Shown here piece after piece: positions 17,491 through 28,324 of a stretch of DNA of 64,000 nt (position 1 is its first letter; every line of letters starts with the position of its first letter). This DNA comes from Syntrophorhabdus sp. PtaU1.Bin058 (GTDB lineage: Bacteria; Desulfobacterota; Syntrophorhabdia; Syntrophorhabdales; Syntrophorhabdaceae): the NCBI GenBank assembly GCA_002067975.1, contig MVRS01000074.1, forward strand, positions 1-64,000. The letters run 5' to 3'. Position numbers and translations under genes: made by a program. The notes below the pieces were generated by a model. The model worked only from the letters and a program-made list of their open reading frames with translations, searched no databases and was not told the origin of the DNA.

Positions 17491-18333
17491 ATGGCAAACA
17501 AGACATTCGATAAAAAAGATCCTGGTTCTCCGAACTCCGAACTCCGAACTCCGAACTCTACACTGCCCTTATCCGTCTACATGATCACATACAACAACGG
17601 CGCGACGATCGAGGGGGCGCTGAAGAGCGTTGCCGGCTGGGCCAGCGAGCTTATTGTCGTCGATTCCCACAGCATTGACGGGGCAATCGAGACGATCCAG
17701 AGATATACCGATAAGCTCTACCAGTTCGATACAACGGATATGCGCGAGAAATACCAGTCTGCACACAACCTGTGCAGCAACCCCTGGGTGCTCTTTATCG
17801 ATGCCGATGAGTGGCTTACGGAGGAATTTAAGAGAGAAGTGGCCGGCATCGTTACCGGCGAAACCCCCTGCAGCGGCTTTATCGCCCACAGGAGAAACAT
17901 CTATCTCGGCAGGGAGATCAGGCACGGCGGCTGGTATCCCGATTACGAGATACGGCTGTACAGAAAGGACAGGGGAAACTGGCAGGGCGGTATCCACGCG
18001 AAGATCCACGTTGACGGAAAGATAGGGACGCTGAAAAGCCATTACATGCATGCACCTTATGCGGACACGGCGCATCAGATCAGGACGATAGACCGCTATT
18101 CTGAGGCGTTTGCAGGCGACCTCTACAGGTCGAACCGCCATTTTCACCTTTTCAATATGCTCGCAAGACCGGTTTACCGTTTTTTCCGGGACTATATCCT
18201 CAAGATGGGTTTTCTTGACGGCATACCGGGGCTCATCATCTGTGCCTCGACGATGTACTATGTATTTATGAAACATGCGAAACTATGGGAAATGGAGAAG
18301 AAATATGGGAGGAATAAAGGGATTCAGGAATAA
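17491..18333 (+). CDS. Glycosyltransferase family 2 (WaaE/KdtX-like)
   Basis: 280 residues. A GT-A domain starts at about residue 28 (LSVYMITYNNGATIEGAL), with the metal-binding DADEW around residue 110 and basic membrane-association helices near the end. Similar proteins add a glucose to the LPS inner core. The first 27 residues do not belong to the fold: they are encoded partly by a 7-bp repeat (17528-17555). The true start is uncertain, but no other ATG precedes the conserved LSVYMITYNN. First gene of the LPS cluster; its 3' end overlaps the next gene by 29 bp. Confidence 0.85.
   Translation: MANKTFDKKDPGSPNSELRTPNSTLPLSVYMITYNNGATIEGALKSVAGWASELIVVDSHSIDGAIETIQRYTDKLYQFDTTDMREKYQSAHNLCSNPWVLFIDADEWLTEEFKREVAGIVTGETPCSGFIAHRRNIYLGREIRHGGWYPDYEIRLYRKDRGNWQGGIHAKIHVDGKIGTLKSHYMHAPYADTAHQIRTIDRYSEAFAGDLYRSNRHFHLFNMLARPVYRFFRDYILKMGFLDGIPGLIICASTMYYVFMKHAKLWEMEKKYGRNKGIQE
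17528..17555 (+). repeat. Four perfect CTCCGAA heptads inside a coding start
   Basis: Four exact copies of CTCCGAA, read through as part of the N-terminus of the glycosyltransferase (PNSELRTPNS). This is the same 7-bp period as the intergenic islands. Confidence 0.9.
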
Positions 18334-19300
18334 AGAGGTGATCATCACGGGAGGGCTGGGGTTTATCGGCAGTAATCTTGCCATAGCGCTTGTCAGGCTC
18401 GGCGCCCGCGTAACGATCATTGACAATATGCTCCCGAGGCAGGGCGGGAGCCTCTTCAACATCAAGGATATCGTGGACAGGGTAAAGGTGAATTTTTCCG
18501 ACGTGAGAAACGAGCTTTCCATGAACCACCTCGTGAAGGGAAAGGATTATATCTTCCACCTTGCCGGACAGGTAAACCACGTTGACAGTATGCGAAACCC
18601 GATACAGGACCTCGATATCAACTGCAGGGGCACGCTCGTTCTGCTCGAGGCCCTTCGCCAATATAACACCAATGCAAAGGTGATCTTCGCAGGCACCCGC
18701 GGCGAATACGGGTCGAGCGTCAAGCTCCCCGTCGATGAAGACCACCCCACAAACCCCAAGGGGATCTATGCGGTCACGAACCTCACGGCCGAAAAGATGG
18801 TCCTCGTCTATGACGACATCCACAAGATCAGGGGCACGTGCCTGCGGATCACAAATACCTACGGGCCCAGACACCAGATGATGCACGACGAGTACGGCGT
18901 CTTCAACTGGTTCATACGCAAGGCAATAGACAACGAGGACATCCCTGTCTTCGGTGACGGACGCATCCTCAGGGATTTTCTCTATGTCGATGACCTCGTT
19001 GAATGTATGCTCATGACGGCAACGACCGATGCTGCCTACGGGGAGGTCTTTAATGTAGGGACAGGGGTGCCGGTCAGCTTCTACGATCTTGCGAAGACGA
19101 TCGTCAGGATCACAGGAGCGGGAAGGACAAGATTTACGGAATTCACACAGGAGAGAAAAGAGGTCGAGCCGGGCGATTACTACGCGGACATCAGCCATAT
19201 AAAAAAGGTGGTCGGGTGGAAGCCGGAGACGTCTCTGGATCAGGGGATCCGCAAGACCGTGGCGTACTACAGGAAACATAGAAATGAATACTGGCGTTAA
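18305..19300 (+). CDS. NAD-dependent sugar epimerase/dehydratase (extended SDR)
   Basis: 331 residues from the ATG at 18305, which overlaps the previous gene. A Rossmann motif GGLGFIGSN lies at the N-terminus, and the fold resembles RmlB, GalE and GDP-mannose dehydratase. The active-site YxxxK is altered: Y155-A-V-T-N159 has Asn where the catalytic Lys is expected. It probably makes or modifies an NDP-sugar used with the next gene's aminotransferase, but the missing Lys leaves the activity open. A hairpin of 7-bp repeats follows before the next gene. Confidence 0.82.
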   Translation: MGGIKGFRNKEVIITGGLGFIGSNLAIALVRLGARVTIIDNMLPRQGGSLFNIKDIVDRVKVNFSDVRNELSMNHLVKGKDYIFHLAGQVNHVDSMRNPIQDLDINCRGTLVLLEALRQYNTNAKVIFAGTRGEYGSSVKLPVDEDHPTNPKGIYAVTNLTAEKMVLVYDDIHKIRGTCLRITNTYGPRHQMMHDEYGVFNWFIRKAIDNEDIPVFGDGRILRDFLYVDDLVECMLMTATTDAAYGEVFNVGTGVPVSFYDLAKTIVRITGAGRTRFTEFTQERKEVEPGDYYADISHIKKVVGWKPETSLDQGIRKTVAYYRKHRNEYWR

Positions 19301-19364
19301 ATCCGAATGAAGGCCGTAAGGCGTGAGGCGATTTAACCCCTTACGGCTTACGCCTTACGGATTT
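19299..19364 (+). repeat. Inverted 7-bp repeat island within the LPS operon
   Basis: Left arm of GTAAGGC and GTGAGGC words (19314-19330), right arm the reverse complement CTTACGG/CTTACGC (19340-19360), enclosed by AAATCC/GGATTT. It can fold into a hairpin. Bases 19315-19339 are identical to 40853-40877. Confidence 0.88.
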
Positions 19365-19382
19365 AATAAGGGGAATGAAATT

Positions 19383-20492
19383 ATGATCGTAAAGATGTTT
19401 AACTTGGAGCGGGAACATGAGGACATAAAGAAGGACCTGCTCAGGATCTTTGAGGATGTCCTGTCGGGTGGTGAATTTATACAGGGAAAAGAGGTGAGGG
19501 CCCTGGAAGAGTCTTTCGCCTCATATATCGGGGTAAAATACGCAATAGGTGTTGGAAACGGCACCGACGCAATCCGCATCGGCGGTCTTGCCCTTGATCT
19601 GAAGGCAGGAGATAAGTTTGTGACGACCCCCAACACCTATGTCGCCTCTGCAATGGCCCTCTCCATGCAAGGCCTGGTGCCGCTCTTCTGCGACATCGAG
19701 CTTGAGACATACAACATGGACCCCGAAAAACTCGAAGACCTTTTAAAAAGGGAGAGGGACATCAAGCTCTGCATACCGGTACACCTCTACGGCCATCCGT
19801 GCAGGATGGATGAGATCATGGGGATCTGCAAGACCTATGGCGTGAAGGTCATGGAAGACGCCTGCCAGGCGCACGGGGCCCTGTACAAAGACAGGAAGGT
19901 GGGTGGTTTCGGCGATGTGGCCGCCTTCAGCTTCTATCCCACAAAGAACCTTGGCTGTTACGGAGACGGGGGTATCGTTGTGACCGATTCCGAAGAGGCA
20001 TACAGGAAGGCGATCATGCTCAGGAACTATGGCCAGACAGATAAACACGTCCACGCGATCGAGGGCTTCAATTCGAGGCTCGATGAGGTCCAGGCGGCGT
20101 TTTTGAGACATAAGCTGGAGTACCTCGATCAGTGGAATGAGAAGAGACGGCACATCGCGTGGTTTTACCGGAAGGAGCTTGAGGATACGCCGCTTGTTCT
20201 CCCCGCAGAGGCCCCCTGGGCGCACCACGTATATCATGTCTATGTCGTGAGGTCGAAAAAACGCGACGATCTCCGCCAGTACCTGAGCGACAACGGCGTC
20301 TCGACGCTCATCCATTACCCGACGCCGATACATCTCCAGGGCGCATACGGCAGCCTCGGTTTCAGGAAAGGGTCTTTTGTCAACGCCGAGCAGGCAGCCG
20401 GGGAGATCATCTCGCTCCCTATGTACCCGACGTTGAAACAGGACGAGATACTCCATGTATGCGGGTGCATACGGGAATTCTACGGTCTATGA
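19383..20492 (+). CDS. DegT/DnrJ/EryC1-family sugar aminotransferase
   Basis: 369 residues from the ATG at 19383; the frame upstream is the repeat island and is not counted. PLP-dependent fold type I. The Schiff-base lysine is K188 in SFYPTKNLG, and the PLP-ring aspartate is D159 in MEDACQAHGA. Such enzymes transfer an amino group from glutamate to a keto-sugar nucleotide, here presumably the product of the adjacent SDR enzyme. Its stop overlaps the next gene (ATGA). Confidence 0.9.
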   Translation: MIVKMFNLEREHEDIKKDLLRIFEDVLSGGEFIQGKEVRALEESFASYIGVKYAIGVGNGTDAIRIGGLALDLKAGDKFVTTPNTYVASAMALSMQGLVPLFCDIELETYNMDPEKLEDLLKRERDIKLCIPVHLYGHPCRMDEIMGICKTYGVKVMEDACQAHGALYKDRKVGGFGDVAAFSFYPTKNLGCYGDGGIVVTDSEEAYRKAIMLRNYGQTDKHVHAIEGFNSRLDEVQAAFLRHKLEYLDQWNEKRRHIAWFYRKELEDTPLVLPAEAPWAHHVYHVYVVRSKKRDDLRQYLSDNGVSTLIHYPTPIHLQGAYGSLGFRKGSFVNAEQAAGEIISLPMYPTLKQDEILHVCGCIREFYGL

Positions 20493-21622
20493 AGATCCTC
20501 CAATTATTCAGCGACTGGAAGTGGACAGGACCTGCGGAGCCGGTGGTGTCGCTCTGCGAGGTCATGAACGCCCAGGGGATTGACGTGACGCTTGCCTACA
20601 GGAAGACCCCCCTTGAGTTTCGCGAGAGGACCGTTGAGAAACAGGTAAAACAGAGGGCAATGCGCTATTACGACGGACTGAGGCTGAACAGGTATTTTTC
20701 CTTCAGGGACTGGTCTTACGACATGCAGCATTTAAAGGATTATGTGGGGAGGGAAAAGATCGATATCATCCATACGAACCTCTCCCACGACCACTACACC
20801 GCCGTTATTGCGATGCTCTTTGCAGGCATGAGGCCGTTGATAGTACGGACAGACCATAAGAGAGACGGTATGCCGGATAATCTTTTTATGTCCTGGGCGC
20901 TCCGCAGGACAGACGGGATCGTGACCTATAGTGAAAGGCTGCGGAGACAGGATGTAAAAAGATTCGATTTCCCCGACGAAAGGACATCCGTTATCACGCC
21001 GGCGATAAAGTTATATGACGGCCCTGTAAGGGACATGCGGGATGAACTCGGCATCAGGCCCGGTGAGAGGGTCATCGGGGTTATCGGGCGTCTCAAGCCC
21101 GACCGCGGATACGAGATCATACTCAGGGCGTTTAAAAAGGTGAAAGACCGTCAGGACGGGGTCAGGCTCCTTGTAATGGGCAGGAGCTCCCAGATAGAGA
21201 AGAGCATAAAGAGGCCGCTCGCTGAGCTTGGCATTGAGCAGGACGTGATCCTTGCAGGGTACAGGGTGGAGGACTATTTTTCCGTTATTGCGACCTTCGA
21301 TATCTTTATCATAATGAGGGCGGGGAGTGACGGCTCGGCGAGGGCGCTGCGGGAGGTCATGGGCATGGGAAGACCTGCCATAGTCTCAGATGCGGGCATG
21401 CTCCCCGAGCTTGTTGATAACGGGAAAACCGGTTTTGTTACGACCTGGGATGAAAATGACCTTTCGAAGAAGATGGAGGCCCTGCTCCAGGATGAGGGCA
21501 TGAGAAAGACCTTTGGGGCCAATGCAGCCAAAACGGCCAAGGAGAAATGGGATTACCGGGCACAGGCCGGACAGCTCAGAAATTTTTATGAAAGGCTTAT
21601 GCGTATGGGGAAAAGAAAATAA
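20489..21622 (+). CDS. Glycosyltransferase family 4 (GT-B)
   Basis: 377 residues from the ATG at 20489. The second Rossmann domain carries GVIGRLKPDRGYE and the EX7E-like region REVMGMGRPAIVSDAGMLPELV. A cytoplasmic-face retaining transferase of the surface-polysaccharide pathway; donor and acceptor cannot be predicted. Starts within the stop of the aminotransferase, so it is translationally coupled. Confidence 0.87.
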   Translation: MKILQLFSDWKWTGPAEPVVSLCEVMNAQGIDVTLAYRKTPLEFRERTVEKQVKQRAMRYYDGLRLNRYFSFRDWSYDMQHLKDYVGREKIDIIHTNLSHDHYTAVIAMLFAGMRPLIVRTDHKRDGMPDNLFMSWALRRTDGIVTYSERLRRQDVKRFDFPDERTSVITPAIKLYDGPVRDMRDELGIRPGERVIGVIGRLKPDRGYEIILRAFKKVKDRQDGVRLLVMGRSSQIEKSIKRPLAELGIEQDVILAGYRVEDYFSVIATFDIFIIMRAGSDGSARALREVMGMGRPAIVSDAGMLPELVDNGKTGFVTTWDENDLSKKMEALLQDEGMRKTFGANAAKTAKEKWDYRAQAGQLRNFYERLMRMGKRK

Positions 21623-21645
21623 TTCTCCTGAATTGAATTAACACC

Positions 21646-22779
21646 ATGAAGATAGGCATAGCGATCTATAATTTTAATCCGAAAAAAGGCGGCGCTGAAC
21701 GGTACGCCTATGACATCGCCACGATCCTGAGCAGAAAGGGGCACGAGATCTTTCTCTTCTGCTCGCTGGGGGTAGAGGTGCCGGGGATCACCCTGGTGAG
21801 ATTCAATACAATGCCGTTCCCGCGCTGGCTCAGAAACTTCTCCTTCGCGCTCAATCACAGGAAATACGTGAAGCTCTTTAACCTTGATATCATGCTCGGT
21901 TTCGGTAACACCTTTGATCTCGATGTATACCAGAGCCACGGCGGCGTGCAGCGTATCTGGATGGAGAGGGAGATCGCAAGCTACGACGATCAGAGGGAGC
22001 GTTCCGTGAAGGCGTTCCTCTTGCGCAGCAGCATCAACCAGATGATGCAGCGCTGGATCGAAGAATATCCTATCAGAACCGGGAGATATTCCAGGATCGT
22101 TGCCATCTCCGATATGATAAAAGGGCACATGACCGAGCATTATAACCTTACCGACGACAGCATAGACGTTGTGTACAATGGTGTGGATACGGAACGCTTC
22201 AGGCCGGCAGCAATGATGCCCGAGGGACCTCCGAGGATACTCTTTTCAGCAGGGAATTTCCGGCTTAAGGGCCTTTCTCCGTTGCTTTTTGCACTGGGTG
22301 AGGTTTCAAAAGAGACGAAGGACTTCCGCCTCATGGTCATGGGCAGGGGGAGAAAAGAAAGATATATGGAGATGGTAGATGCACTGAACATCGGGAACAA
22401 CGTGACCTTTCTCGGGGAGTCTTCTTCGCCGGAGGACGTTTACCGCGACGCCCATATACTCGTGCACCCTACCTTCTACGATGCCTGTTCACTGACGACG
22501 ATGGAGTCAATGGCATCGGGGCTTCCGACGATCACAACAAAGTGGAACGGCGCAGCGACCCTCATCTCTGAAAGGGAGGGCTATGTCATTGACGAGCCAC
22601 GTAATGTCGCCAGCCTCGCATCGGCAATAAAGGCATTGCTCGACAGGGACCGTATGCGCTCCATGGGCAAGGCTGCCCGGGCGAAGCTTGAAGACTTCAC
22701 TATCGAGAAGAACGCAGCAGCAATGGAAAGGATATGTAAAGAAGCGGCAGACTCAAAACAGGGTAAAGGCAGTCGATAG
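21646..22779 (+). CDS. Glycosyltransferase family 4 (WaaG-like)
   Basis: 377 residues. It begins KIGIAIYNFNPKKGGAERY, the GGAER acceptor-side loop of WaaG/RfaG-type LPS core glucosyltransferases, and has a C-terminal donor site with TTMESMASGLPTITT. Gap to the previous gene is 23 bp. The final codons and the TAG stop (22777-22779) belong to the first TCGATAG unit of a repeat island, so the island has probably trimmed or extended the original C-terminus. Confidence 0.88.
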   Translation: MKIGIAIYNFNPKKGGAERYAYDIATILSRKGHEIFLFCSLGVEVPGITLVRFNTMPFPRWLRNFSFALNHRKYVKLFNLDIMLGFGNTFDLDVYQSHGGVQRIWMEREIASYDDQRERSVKAFLLRSSINQMMQRWIEEYPIRTGRYSRIVAISDMIKGHMTEHYNLTDDSIDVVYNGVDTERFRPAAMMPEGPPRILFSAGNFRLKGLSPLLFALGEVSKETKDFRLMVMGRGRKERYMEMVDALNIGNNVTFLGESSSPEDVYRDAHILVHPTFYDACSLTTMESMASGLPTITTKWNGAATLISEREGYVIDEPRNVASLASAIKALLDRDRMRSMGKAARAKLEDFTIEKNAAAMERICKEAADSKQGKGSR

Positions 22780-22932
22780 TCGATAGTGAATAGCAGAAAA
22801 CCAGTCGATAGTCGATAGTATATCGTATATAGTGGACTGCAAAAGCAGCATCTAAGGCCTCTTTCGGTCTACGATATACGAATTACAATATACGATTTTC
22901 TACGAGCTATTATTTATCTGCCGATGGCTGAC
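22768..22932 (+). repeat. 7-bp repeat island between convergent glycosyltransferases
   Basis: TCGATAG/TGAATAG units (22768-22820) are followed by ATATCGT/ATATAGT words and then an inverted CGATATA/CGAATTA block (22871-22905). Positions 22768-22793 equal the reverse complement of 58541-58566 in all 26 bases. The region holds no gene. Confidence 0.9.
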
Positions 22933-22937
22933 CGCTG

Positions 22938-24111: not shown

Positions 24112-25899
24112 GTGAACATATTGGGTCTTCATATATTCGGACACGACACCGGCGCTGCCATTATATCAAATGGCCGCATCTGGGCCATCGGCGAAGAGAG
24201 GCTCGACCGGAGAAAGCACTCCGGCTACTTCCCTCATCTCTCGGTGAAGTATCTCCTTCAGGCTGCCGGGCTTAAAAGCATCAACGAGATCGACCTTGTT
24301 GTCGGGGTCACACGATATAATAAGGAAGGAAGCAACGTCACCGTCGGTTCGATCAGGGAGGACCTCGGTTACACCGGCAGGGTCCATACGGTCTCCCACC
24401 ACGATGCCCATGCGGCAAGCGCCTTCTGTGCATCGCCCTTTGACGAGGCGGCCATAATGGTCGTTGACGGGCTGGGGAGCAAGTCCGTTGAGATCGAGAC
24501 CGGCAAGGAGCTTCCCTTCTCGCTCCGGGGATTGACGATCAAAGAGCAGAAAGACCGCGAAGAGGTCCAGTCGTTCTACAGGGCGCAGGGGAATGAGCTG
24601 ACCCAGATACGGAAAGACTGTACGGTCCCGGGATACATGAACGGGCTGGGCCTTGTCTATATGGGGGCATCGGTGTTTCTGAATTTCGGTGATTTCGGCT
24701 CAGGGAAGGTGATGGGGCTTGCGCCCTACGGGGGGCGACCAGGCAAGACAATAGATCCGGGGTTCTTCGATGTTGTAGACGGTGTTGCGCTTACGAAAAG
24801 CGAAAAGAACTTTGTACGGCACAACGATCTTTTTCAGAGGCAGTTCTTTCCCGACCTGCCCCGCCGCGAAAACCAGAAGCTGCCCGATGATGTCTATACG
24901 GAGATCGCCTATGCAGTGCAGAAGACAACCGAAGAGGGCCTTATTGAGATAGCGCGATACCTATACCGGATAAGCCCGAGCAAAAACCTCTGCTACGCAG
25001 GCGGCGTCGGCCTGAACAGCGTGGCAAATAAAATGATACTCGACAATACGCCCTTTGAGAATATCTTTGTCCAGCCCGGCTCCTGCGACTCGGGCATTGC
25101 CCTTGGCTGCGCCCTCTACGGCGCCCATTTTGTTGAAAAGGAGGAACCGGGGAAGTACCGGTTCAGGAATGCGTACCTCGGCAGGACTTACAGCGAGGAT
25201 GAGATCCTTGAGACATTGCGCGCTACACCGAACATCCGGTTTACAAAGGAACAGGATATTGTAAAAAGATCCGCCGGACTTCTGGCTGACGGGAAGATAC
25301 TCGGCTGGCTGGAAGGCGGGAGCGAGATCGGTCCCCGTGCCCTGGGGCACAGGAGCATCATCTGCGATCCGAGAAAGCCGGAGATGAAGGACGTCCTGAA
25401 CGCAAAGGTAAAGCACAGGGAAGGGTTCCGCCCCTTTGCGCCGTCGGTCCTCCTGGAGCACGTCTCCGAATACTTCGATCTCGATTGCGAGAGCCCCTAT
25501 ATGCTCCTCATCGCCGCGGTCAAAGAGGACAAACGGGCAATGGTCCCTGCGATCACCCACGTTGACGGCACCGCGCGGGTCCAGACAGTGACAAAGAACA
25601 ACAACGGCAGGTATTACGACCTCATCAGGGAGTTCTACAATATTACCAACGTACCGGTTATACTCAACACCTCTTTTAATATCGCCGGTGAACCTATTGT
25701 AGAGACCCCGCAGGATGCCCTGAGATGTTTCATGTCCACCGAGATGGACTATCTGGTTATCGATGACTATCTTGTTGAAGCTGCCGGCCCCAAAGAACTT
25801 GTCAAGGGACCTGTTGCCGATGAAAACAAGCTGAAGGCGGTTGATATCAGAGGCGGCAGGGGTTTAAAGAGATGGCTCGCAGGTTTCAAGAAGCGATAG
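24112..25899 (+). CDS. Carbamoyltransferase, NodU/CmcH family
   Basis: 595 residues, GTG start (AGGGG upstream). The N-terminal kinase-like domain has the metal-binding HHDAH (residues 96-100) and VDG. The C-terminal YrdC-like half has GPRALGHRS and the end block VILNTSFNIAGEPI. Family members use carbamoyl phosphate and ATP to carbamoylate a hydroxyl, for example on Nod factors, antibiotics or O-antigen sugars. Its place between glycosyltransferases suggests a carbamoylated sugar in the surface glycan. Confidence 0.92.
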   Translation: MNILGLHIFGHDTGAAIISNGRIWAIGEERLDRRKHSGYFPHLSVKYLLQAAGLKSINEIDLVVGVTRYNKEGSNVTVGSIREDLGYTGRVHTVSHHDAHAASAFCASPFDEAAIMVVDGLGSKSVEIETGKELPFSLRGLTIKEQKDREEVQSFYRAQGNELTQIRKDCTVPGYMNGLGLVYMGASVFLNFGDFGSGKVMGLAPYGGRPGKTIDPGFFDVVDGVALTKSEKNFVRHNDLFQRQFFPDLPRRENQKLPDDVYTEIAYAVQKTTEEGLIEIARYLYRISPSKNLCYAGGVGLNSVANKMILDNTPFENIFVQPGSCDSGIALGCALYGAHFVEKEEPGKYRFRNAYLGRTYSEDEILETLRATPNIRFTKEQDIVKRSAGLLADGKILGWLEGGSEIGPRALGHRSIICDPRKPEMKDVLNAKVKHREGFRPFAPSVLLEHVSEYFDLDCESPYMLLIAAVKEDKRAMVPAITHVDGTARVQTVTKNNNGRYYDLIREFYNITNVPVILNTSFNIAGEPIVETPQDALRCFMSTEMDYLVIDDYLVEAAGPKELVKGPVADENKLKAVDIRGGRGLKRWLAGFKKR

Positions 25900-25931
25900 C
25901 GCGGACAGGGACCAATCCTCTTAAGAATCCT

Positions 25932-26918
25932 ATGAAGAAGATCCTCTTTTTCACCCACAACATTTTTACGAAAGAGAACCCGCGGGGTTACAGGATCCAC
26001 CAATACTTCCCGTACCTGGAGAAAAGCGGCTTCACGGTCACGCTGCTGACAACAAAGACGGGTCTCCCCAGGGTGCTCCGGGAGATCATGCAGTCAGACA
26101 TAACCTATGTCCAGCGGGTGCTGCTCAATCCCTTCAAGCTGTCTCTTTTCAGGAGGCTTTCGAAAAGGATGGTCTACGATTTCGATGACGCGGTGATGTA
26201 CGGAAGCCGGGGCGTGAGCACAACGCGGCAGAAGAGGTTTGAAGGCATGGTAAAGGCCTCGGACGTTGTGCTGTGCGGCAATAACTTTCTCGCAGATGAG
26301 GCAGGGAAATACAAAGCGACAGGCGTCCATTATATCCCTACGGTCGTCGATATCGGTGAATATCCGGTGAAACAACACGAGCCGAAGAGGCCCTTTGTCA
26401 TCGGATGGATAGGGAGCAGCGCAACATTGAAATACCTCGCCGATATACGTGGGTTATTGGATTACTATGCTGACCAGGAAGGCGTGGAGTGCAAGGTGGT
26501 CGCCGACAAACCCCCTGAAGGGATGAAAAAGGGGATGCTCTTTGAACAATGGGATTACGACAGGGAGAAGCAGTCGATCCTGAGTTTCGATATGGGGATC
26601 ATGCCGGTAAAGGACGATATCTGGTCCCTGGGGAAGTGCGGCCTCAAGCTGATCCAGTATATGGCCGCAGGGCTTCCCTCGGTTGCCCACCCTGTCGGCG
26701 TTGTGCAGGACATGATCGTAGACGGGTATAACGGGTTTTCCAGGAAGGACACTGAAGGCTGGAAGGACGCTATCGACAGGCTCCGGGGAGACGTTGACCT
26801 GCGGAGGGCCATGGGGACGGCCTCGAGGAAGATCGCCGAAGAACGTTATTCCCTGGATATATGGGGACCGAGGGTTGCAGAGGTCCTGGATGCACTTATA
26901 GATGGAACAACACGATGA
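25932..26918 (+). CDS. Glycosyltransferase, GT-B family 4-like
   Basis: 328 residues from the ATG at 25932; the frame continues 20 codons upstream into the previous gene. It begins KKILFFTHNIF and has donor-site motifs IGWIGSSATLKYL and KCGLKLIQYMAAGLPSVAHPVG. The first domain contains YDFDDAV, seen in several LPS transferases. Coupled to the double-kinase gene by an ATGA overlap. Confidence 0.85.
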   Translation: MKKILFFTHNIFTKENPRGYRIHQYFPYLEKSGFTVTLLTTKTGLPRVLREIMQSDITYVQRVLLNPFKLSLFRRLSKRMVYDFDDAVMYGSRGVSTTRQKRFEGMVKASDVVLCGNNFLADEAGKYKATGVHYIPTVVDIGEYPVKQHEPKRPFVIGWIGSSATLKYLADIRGLLDYYADQEGVECKVVADKPPEGMKKGMLFEQWDYDREKQSILSFDMGIMPVKDDIWSLGKCGLKLIQYMAAGLPSVAHPVGVVQDMIVDGYNGFSRKDTEGWKDAIDRLRGDVDLRRAMGTASRKIAEERYSLDIWGPRVAEVLDALIDGTTR

Positions 26919-28324
26919 AGGAATTCCGGATAAAAGGCATGAAGTGGTTCCTTGACGACGAAGGGCTCGCAGCCGTGCTTGAAAAACTGCCGGAGGTGAC
27001 GGATGCGCGGAGGCATTATGTTGCAATGCCCTATAAAAAAGGAAGGGTCTTCATAAAGACCTTTGTCGAGAAAGGGGCCCTCGGCGCACTGAGGAACAGG
27101 ACCGTTCCCAGGGGCAAGAAGGAATATATGACAGGGAAGCGGCTCGCCTCGATGGGGATCAGGACGCCGGGGTGCCTTGGATACGGGGTCGGCAGGAGGC
27201 GCTCCTGTGTGGTCCAGGATTGGATCGACGGGGATGGCTTCGTCCGTGTCTTTTTCCGGCACGGGTACCGCGAACGATTGATCCCTGCACTTGCAGGGCT
27301 TCTCAGGAGGTTGAAGGATAACGGTGTCTGTCATAATGACCTCCATCTCGACAATGTGCTTGTGTCCGGCGATCTCCTGTATCTTATTGACCTCCACAAG
27401 ACAAAGATCAAAGACGCCTTGAACGATAAAGATGAGCTTTCCAACCTCACCCACGCCCTTACCATGATCTATGAAGACTTGAGCGAGAAAGAGAAGGAAC
27501 TCTTTTTTGAGCTGTATGGAAATACGATGATACAAAAGGCGGTTGAAGGAGAGATCAAGAGGTTGTGGAGGAGGTGGATCGAGAGCAAGAAGAAAAGGGC
27601 ATTCCAGGAGACCTCAAAGATCGTGCGCAGAGGGGAACGTCTCTATGTTGCGGGAATGGAAGATCGCGGGAAAGGCGCCTTTGTCCAGAGGCTGAAAAGT
27701 GACAAGAAGGTAAAGGTCGAGCGATACAGCGACCACGTCAGGAAGATATATAAAGGCAGGAGGCGCTTAGAGAAGGCATGGAGGAACCATATTGTCCTCC
27801 TGTACCTCAACATGGCGATCATCCCCCATGCGTATTATGTAAGATTGCCGTCGCTTTTTTCAGGGGGCTTTATCGCGATGGAGGACCTCGGGGGTAAAGG
27901 GAGAGAGCTCGACAGGCATCTCGACGGCATATACGATGGCCTGAATACTACTCAAAGGCACAGGTTCGTTAATGCCTTCTCCAATTTTATGAAAGGGGTG
28001 ATCGGCCAGGGCGTCGTGCACAACGACGTGAAGGGCTGCAACATCTTTGTCGTCGATGATAATGTCTTTTTCTTTCTCGACGTTGAGGATATTGTCTTTG
28101 AGCATGTTGACGAGGCAATATTGACCAGGATGCTTGTACAGTTAAATACTACGATACCGAAAAGGATCTCCGTCAGCGACAGGCTGAGGTTCTTCGCAAG
28201 ACTTACGCGGGCGCTGAACGTTGACAGAAAAGGGGTCCTCAAAAAGGTCGTCGAAGAGTCCCTCAAGGGTGAGATCGTCTATGAAGGGGTGTCGGGACTG
28301 AAGAGAGAACAGTGGAACCTATAA
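26915..28324 (+). CDS. Two-domain LPS kinase-like protein (tandem WaaP/KdkA-type kinases)
   Basis: 469 residues from the ATG at 26915, about twice the usual 230-270 of LPS sugar kinases. Two kinase-like units follow each other. Unit 1 has a candidate ATP lysine K48, catalytic loop H140-N-D-L-H-L-D-N147 and metal aspartate D159. Unit 2 has K277/K280 in a basic segment like WaaP (RKIYKGRRRLEKAWRNH), loop H369-N-D-V-K-G-C-N376 and D389. Both keep the Asp, Asn and Asp expected of active kinases. It probably phosphorylates two positions of core heptose or Kdo, but two independent functions or one regulatory half are possible. Last gene of the LPS transcription unit. Confidence 0.85.
   Translation: MKEFRIKGMKWFLDDEGLAAVLEKLPEVTDARRHYVAMPYKKGRVFIKTFVEKGALGALRNRTVPRGKKEYMTGKRLASMGIRTPGCLGYGVGRRRSCVVQDWIDGDGFVRVFFRHGYRERLIPALAGLLRRLKDNGVCHNDLHLDNVLVSGDLLYLIDLHKTKIKDALNDKDELSNLTHALTMIYEDLSEKEKELFFELYGNTMIQKAVEGEIKRLWRRWIESKKKRAFQETSKIVRRGERLYVAGMEDRGKGAFVQRLKSDKKVKVERYSDHVRKIYKGRRRLEKAWRNHIVLLYLNMAIIPHAYYVRLPSLFSGGFIAMEDLGGKGRELDRHLDGIYDGLNTTQRHRFVNAFSNFMKGVIGQGVVHNDVKGCNIFVVDDNVFFFLDVEDIVFEHVDEAILTRMLVQLNTTIPKRISVSDRLRFFARLTRALNVDRKGVLKKVVEESLKGEIVYEGVSGLKREQWNL

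Follow-up and report, generated by a model that had tools for sequence, protein, structure and literature searches.

The outer membrane is held together by phosphates of the LPS core, which in Pseudomonas also underlie intrinsic drug resistance. In the window, by which is meant the whole stretch of 64,000 nucleotides analysed from Syntrophorhabdus sp. PtaU1.Bin058, one gene raises the question of whether a single protein carries two LPS-kinase-like domains, and what a second domain would do. The initial annotation described it as one protein with two complete domains of this kind, which may phosphorylate two sugars in one pass or in which one half may control the other. The features of the gene are the following.

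26915..28324, + strand, LPS-kinase-like gene with tandem domains, 469 amino acids
26915..26918, + strand, ATGA overlap of the glycosyltransferase stop and the kinase start (sequence)
26915..27619, + strand, N-terminal kinase domain, residues 1-235, WaaP-like (PF06293 and WaaP fold match)
27056..27058, + strand, K48, beta3 lysine of domain 1 (kept in 54/54)
27122..27124, + strand, E70, alphaC glutamate of domain 1 (kept in 53/54)
27332..27355, + strand, catalytic loop 1, HNDLHLDN, residues 140-147 (translation, alignment)
27389..27397, + strand, metal-binding motif 1, D159-L-H161 (DLH, compare WaaP D188-L189-H190; alignment)
27620..28321, + strand, C-terminal kinase domain, residues 236-469 (own AlphaFold2 model, fold matches)
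27743..27745, + strand, K277, probable beta3 lysine of domain 2 (invariant in 48 homologues; VVK-Y match by eye)
27776..27781, + strand, A288-W289, at the alphaC glutamate position of domain 2 (A/S/G in 52/54, then Trp in 54/54)
28019..28042, + strand, catalytic loop 2, HNDVKGCN, residues 369-376 (translation, alignment)
28079..28087, + strand, metal-binding motif 2, D389-V-E391 (D-x-[ED]; D389 in 53/54, E or D at 391 in 54/54)

One reading frame and two predicted kinase folds

The motif positions first proposed (H140-N-D-L-H-L-D-N147, D159, H369-N-D-V-K-G-C-N376 and D389) are all exact in the translation. The kinase frame (26915-28324) and the glycosyltransferase gene before it share 4 bases (ATGA) where the stop of one meets the start of the other, which makes translational coupling plausible. 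An alternative ATG upstream, at 26861, would give a kinase of 487 amino acids, but it is position 26915 that coincides with the start of the alignment in most close relatives.

Structure prediction with AlphaFold2 (31 sequences) gave two kinase folds for the full chain of 469 residues, with a mean pLDDT of 93.3 and a pTM of 0.80; the C half modelled alone reached 94.6 and 0.89. The single fold that would have contradicted the initial annotation did not appear, and the frame 26915-28324 is confirmed, at the level of the predicted structure, as one protein with two complete kinase domains. In VIA-align comparisons the best structural match of the N half was WaaP (6dfl; Z 17.2, rmsd 3.6, 198 residues aligned), with PRPK tied at Z 16.4. 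The C half matched PRPK (Z 16.7), WaaP (Z 16.1, rmsd 4.0, 211 aligned) and Bud32 (Z 15.5). Foldseek alone placed Bud32/PRPK on top, with WaaP absent among the best 50 matches and WbdD (4azt) among the matches found. These results indicate that both halves have kinase folds of the RIO/Bud32/WaaP class, within which the fold scores do not tell sugar kinases from PRPK/Bud32 (Z within 1). A phmmer search of PDB sequences returned nothing useful for the tandem kinase.

Unequal halves and the proposed function

Conservation was counted in an alignment of 54 tandem homologues. In the N half K48, D142, H144, N147 and D159 are invariant, E70 is kept in 53 and H140 in 52. The C half is as constrained in its catalytic loop and metal site: D371, K373 and N376 are invariant, and H369 and D389 are each kept in 53 of the 54. 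In comparisons with five close relatives the N half gave a dN/dS of 0.16-0.21 and the C half one of 0.11-0.19, values which indicate that both are maintained by similar purifying selection. The automatic alignment misplaces the beta3 lysine of the C half in some divergent rows, and K277 was assigned from the 48-member set; PA5006-type members, discussed below, have VVKxY or LLKRY at that place when inspected by eye.

The two halves differ at the alphaC helix. Where the N domain has E70, the C domains have Ala, Ser or Gly (52/54), followed by a Trp in every homologue. The sole acidic residue of this helix in the C half of the 469-residue protein, E286, is not conserved. The single-domain WaaP, WapP, WapQ and KdkA-like proteins that were compared all have an acidic residue at the E70 position, and E78 of WaaP pairs with its catalytic lysine (PMC6147952). 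Judged from the alignment, loss of the alphaC Glu makes the two halves unequal, and the C half is a separate unusual subclass in which the catalytic loop and metal residues are kept and the Lys-Glu pair is lost. Phosphate transfer there may not proceed in the usual way.

We infer that the substrate is the LPS core and that both halves are catalytic. The protein would act in the cytoplasm on nascent lipid A-core, in the heptose region, with the GT4 glycosyltransferase encoded next to it as its partner. Each domain would bind ATP/Mg and add one phosphate, the N half as a WaaP-like kinase and the C half as an atypical kinase lacking the alphaC Glu; the phosphates would be placed at two inner-core positions, or the second would be added onto an existing one. 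That the tandem kinase makes two core phosphorylations in this manner, with a WaaP-like N half, an atypical C half and a GT4 partner, is the likeliest and most economical of the readings, its chances being put at about even. In the literature searched, no enzyme activity has been reported for any member of the tandem family.

The main rival is that one half is catalytic and the other regulatory or positioning: the N half would phosphorylate a core sugar, and the C half, resembling a pseudokinase, would bind nucleotide or glycan and so control it. The missing alphaC Glu and the invariant Trp, set against the acidic residue of the N domain and of single-domain LPS kinases, speak for this reading, but in the C half the HxD motif, K373, N376 and D389 are no less conserved than their N-half counterparts. 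Furthermore, in the Pseudomonas matsuisoli family it is the N half that is more variable, with Gln often in place of the HxD His and DGG/DGA in place of DLH; HGDLKGHN and DLDA persist in the C half. A regulatory C half is possible, at somewhat better than one chance in four. In the members L102-L106 of that family the His of the N-domain HxD is replaced by Gln (QDDLHLDN type) and DGG/DGA stands instead of DLH, so that in this lineage the N half is the less typical kinase domain of the two.

Gene neighbourhood, family membership and distribution

The kinase lies in a group of glycan genes on the same strand.

17491..22779, + strand, upstream glycan genes: GT2, NDP-sugar epimerase/dehydratase, DegT aminotransferase and two GT4
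24112..25899, + strand, carbamoyltransferase (PF16861, PF02543; Pfam, synteny)
25929..26918, + strand, GT4-type glycosyltransferase, conserved partner of the kinase (weak Pfam GT4 matches; synteny)

The proposed coupling to a glycosyltransferase gene is borne out by the ATGA overlap and by the recurrence of the adjacency: the GT4 partner (GT4c) lies beside the kinase in many genomes of the order Syntrophorhabdales and in five loci from other families of the phylum (L034, L035, L037, L038 and L039), with a gap of ~600 bases in L034 and L038. The carbamoyltransferase adjoins the kinase only in the genus of the window, in L080 and, at about 30% identity, in gammaproteobacteria; the window copy is about 30% identical over its full length to the WapO-type gene beside the gammaproteobacterial tandem kinase.

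The surface-glycan setting named in the initial annotation also holds, and the glycan is most likely the LPS core. Heptosyltransferase genes occur in the cluster of the tandem kinase in other Desulfobacterota (L033, L037, L041, L042), as do HldE-type genes in L033, L075 and L077; both point to the LPS inner core. The kinase cluster of the window contains no heptosyltransferase gene, which weighs against the LPS-core reading. The genome from which the window comes has the Kdo transferase KdtA, two heptosyltransferases and an HldE-type kinase domain, the last two on contig C189.

Could the kinase serve another surface glycan, phosphorylating or capping the end of an O-antigen or exopolysaccharide as WbdD does, with the partner glycosyltransferase as the polymerase? 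The NDP-sugar epimerase, aminotransferase and several glycosyltransferase genes of the window operon would suit such a role, as would an EPS-type priming glycosyltransferase (L033) and an XrtA/PEP-CTERM-type amidotransferase (L051) near the kinases of relatives, and the presence of WbdD among the Foldseek matches. However, heptosyltransferase or HldE genes share the cluster in several families, the gammaproteobacterial homologues reside in a waa cluster, and there is no methyltransferase domain such as that of WbdD. A role in another glycan is therefore improbable.

With respect to known families, PF06293 (Kdo/WaaP) matched the whole protein at 37.3 bits and the N half alone at 33.9, above the gathering cut-off of 21.3. 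The C half alone had no Pfam match, so that standard annotation, seeing only the N half, would miss the second domain. In the relatives L033, L034, L086, L087 and L088 Pfam reports two Kdo stretches, and in these members the two-domain architecture is visible in the databases. The protein falls well below the equivalog cut-offs for WaaP (RfaP; NF011703, 19.3 bits vs. 170) and KdkA (NF002475, 29.4 vs. 142). Its N-domain profile matched the WaaP profile with an E-value of 1.8e-25, and WapP and WapQ gave profile matches to both halves. PADLOC matches were weak and kinase-generic.

The best NCBIfam match was arch_bud32, at 39.7 bits, and PRPK and Bud32 structures score within 1 Z of WaaP; both would fit a protein kinase or ATPase of the Bud32/RIO type. 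That reading is very unlikely, since 39.7 bits is far under the cut-off of 125 while the PF06293 score clears its threshold, the N domain matches the WaaP profile and the neighbours are glycan genes. A Bud32 identity was rejected on its score.

Among the 46 Syntrophorhabdales genomes searched, 44 gave a match, 41 of them full-length and 3 partial; two of the partial matches (G003, G007) run off contig ends and the third (G027) begins at residue 54. A profile search of the phylum sample found the tandem form in a single frame in about 60 of 247 genomes. In the Pseudomonas matsuisoli family 58 of 59 genomes have the tandem protein (57 full-length), colinear over both domains. Members outside the order include P. 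matsuisoli itself (L090), two gammaproteobacterial MAGs (L087, L089), a proteobacterial MAG (L085) and a Desulfobacterium MAG (L088), whose proteins have 457-483 residues with HxDLHLDN and HxDxKxxN; a Brocadiaceae MAG (L086) has a tandem protein of 567. No relative was found in a scan of viral contigs or by plasmid tblastn. The order-level alignment was used for the scan of genome contigs, as the alignment that included all distant members was too diverse.

Two exceptions were seen. In G098 (C2:21599-22204 and 22290-22937), a relative within the phylum, two single-domain kinase genes adjoin, possibly an unfused counterpart, and in G285 (C157:34868-36444) the tandem kinase is seemingly split into two frames by sequencing error or decay. 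These two loci are what could be cited for the idea that two kinase genes were joined recently, by fusion, by a frameshift or as an artefact of assembly. That idea is scarcely credible and was rejected for the family, because the frame is single and open almost throughout the order, in about 60 of the 247 genomes sampled from the phylum and in 57 of the 59 from the Pseudomonas family. The joining of normally separate genes that would have overturned the initial annotation is not seen, and the search it proposed for the same architecture did find it. Its premise that LPS core kinases are single-domain proteins fails, since a colinear two-domain protein is near-universal in the P. matsuisoli family and common in Desulfobacterota. 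By these sequence comparisons the tandem kinase is no one-off; it belongs to a widespread, little-noticed family.

PA5006 and other known kinases

In the comparisons PA5006 of P. aeruginosa PAO1 was represented by the protein at the syntenic place in P. matsuisoli, along with homologues from 57 other genomes of the family. The gene order in P. matsuisoli is waaC-waaG-waaP-wapP-wapQ-tandem-(unrelated dehydrogenase)-carbamoyltransferase (wapO), and the published order PA5011-PA5005 is the same, with PA5006 in the place of the tandem gene (PMC8005017). The surroundings in L087 and L089 are similar. In L089 (5182-7134), L087 (4047-5435) and L085 (6620-8008) a WaaP-like domain lies in frame behind an extra upstream segment, which is glycosyltransferase-like in L089 and L087; waaG and waaP of P. 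matsuisoli are separate.

The profile of the order aligned with the PA5006-type profile (L085, L087, L088, L089, L090) over 367 columns covering both domains, with an hhalign probability of 99.5% and an E-value of 1e-22. In a domain tree the C domains of the order and of the PA5006 type form one branch (98/88), apart from the N domains and from single-domain WaaP, WapP and WapQ; WapP and WapQ are each a separate clade with 100% bootstrap, whereas the tree does not resolve the N domains. The C-domain branch favours one ancient origin of the tandem but, with the N domains as they are, does not prove it. As judged by these profiles, the 469-residue protein belongs to the WaaP/KdkA (PF06293) superfamily as a member with two domains, and it is colinear with its PA5006-type counterpart in Pseudomonas.

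The papers found go no further than to call PA5006 a putative LPS kinase (PMC8005017; PMC8707732). It interacts with PA2576 and PA3694 and self-associates, and a fragment is cited as ending at residue 493 (PMC8707732), a length that suits two domains. In the literature searched, which took in only a minority of subscription papers, no paper calls PA5006 two-domain or deals with tandem or two-domain LPS kinases, and neither an assigned role nor LPS core phosphorylation activity is reported for it.

The Pseudomonas core carries mono-, di- and some triphosphates (PMC8005017), and an unusual second kinase site could add a phosphate of the di- or triphosphate type. That there is a family of two-site LPS-core kinases across Desulfobacterota and Pseudomonas, whose atypical C domain, with its invariant Trp and no alphaC Glu, adds a second, chemically different phosphate, is a speculative extension and rather unlikely. 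As doubtful, and to the same degree, are its candidate products, heptose-region di- or triphosphates to which no enzyme has been assigned. Nevertheless, PA5006-type proteins, seen as tandem kinases of wide range with a distinct C domain, become a testable candidate for unexplained phosphates, those for which the known kinases may not account. The architecture is shared between the 469-residue protein and Pseudomonas, and the bifunctional idea is plausible.

The PA5006/PSPTO_4997 type resembles the 469-residue protein in the order of its two kinase domains, which are colinear over the 367 aligned columns, and in its C domain, where a DLK-type loop, Dx[ED] and a Trp beside the missing alphaC Glu recur. 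Its gene, too, has a carbamoyltransferase gene of that family in the vicinity. It differs in being about 20% identical to the 469-residue protein, in an N-domain motif of DGG/DGM rather than DLH, and in its neighbours waaP, wapP and wapQ, none of which lies beside the kinase in the window; only the carbamoyltransferase is common. Conversely, the GT4 partner gene belongs to the 469-residue kinase, unlike the PA5006 type.

WaaP, the heptose I kinase (PDB 6DFL), has the fold of the N half, its DLH metal motif, beta3 Lys and alphaC Glu, but is single-domain, with an HRD loop lacking the DLHLDN signature. The Kdo kinase KdkA belongs to the same superfamily as the tandem protein. A separate single-domain KdkA-like kinase is encoded in the genome of the window itself (L052:1348-2142, contig C181; 93.9 bits vs. 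the cut-off of 142). WapP and WapQ, putative core heptose kinases, are, in contrast to the tandem protein, single-domain. WbdD, the O9a kinase-methyltransferase, likewise has two domains, one of them an EPK-like sugar kinase, and acts in concert with a glycosyltransferase; its second domain, however, is a methyltransferase, whereas that of the tandem protein is predicted to be a second kinase.
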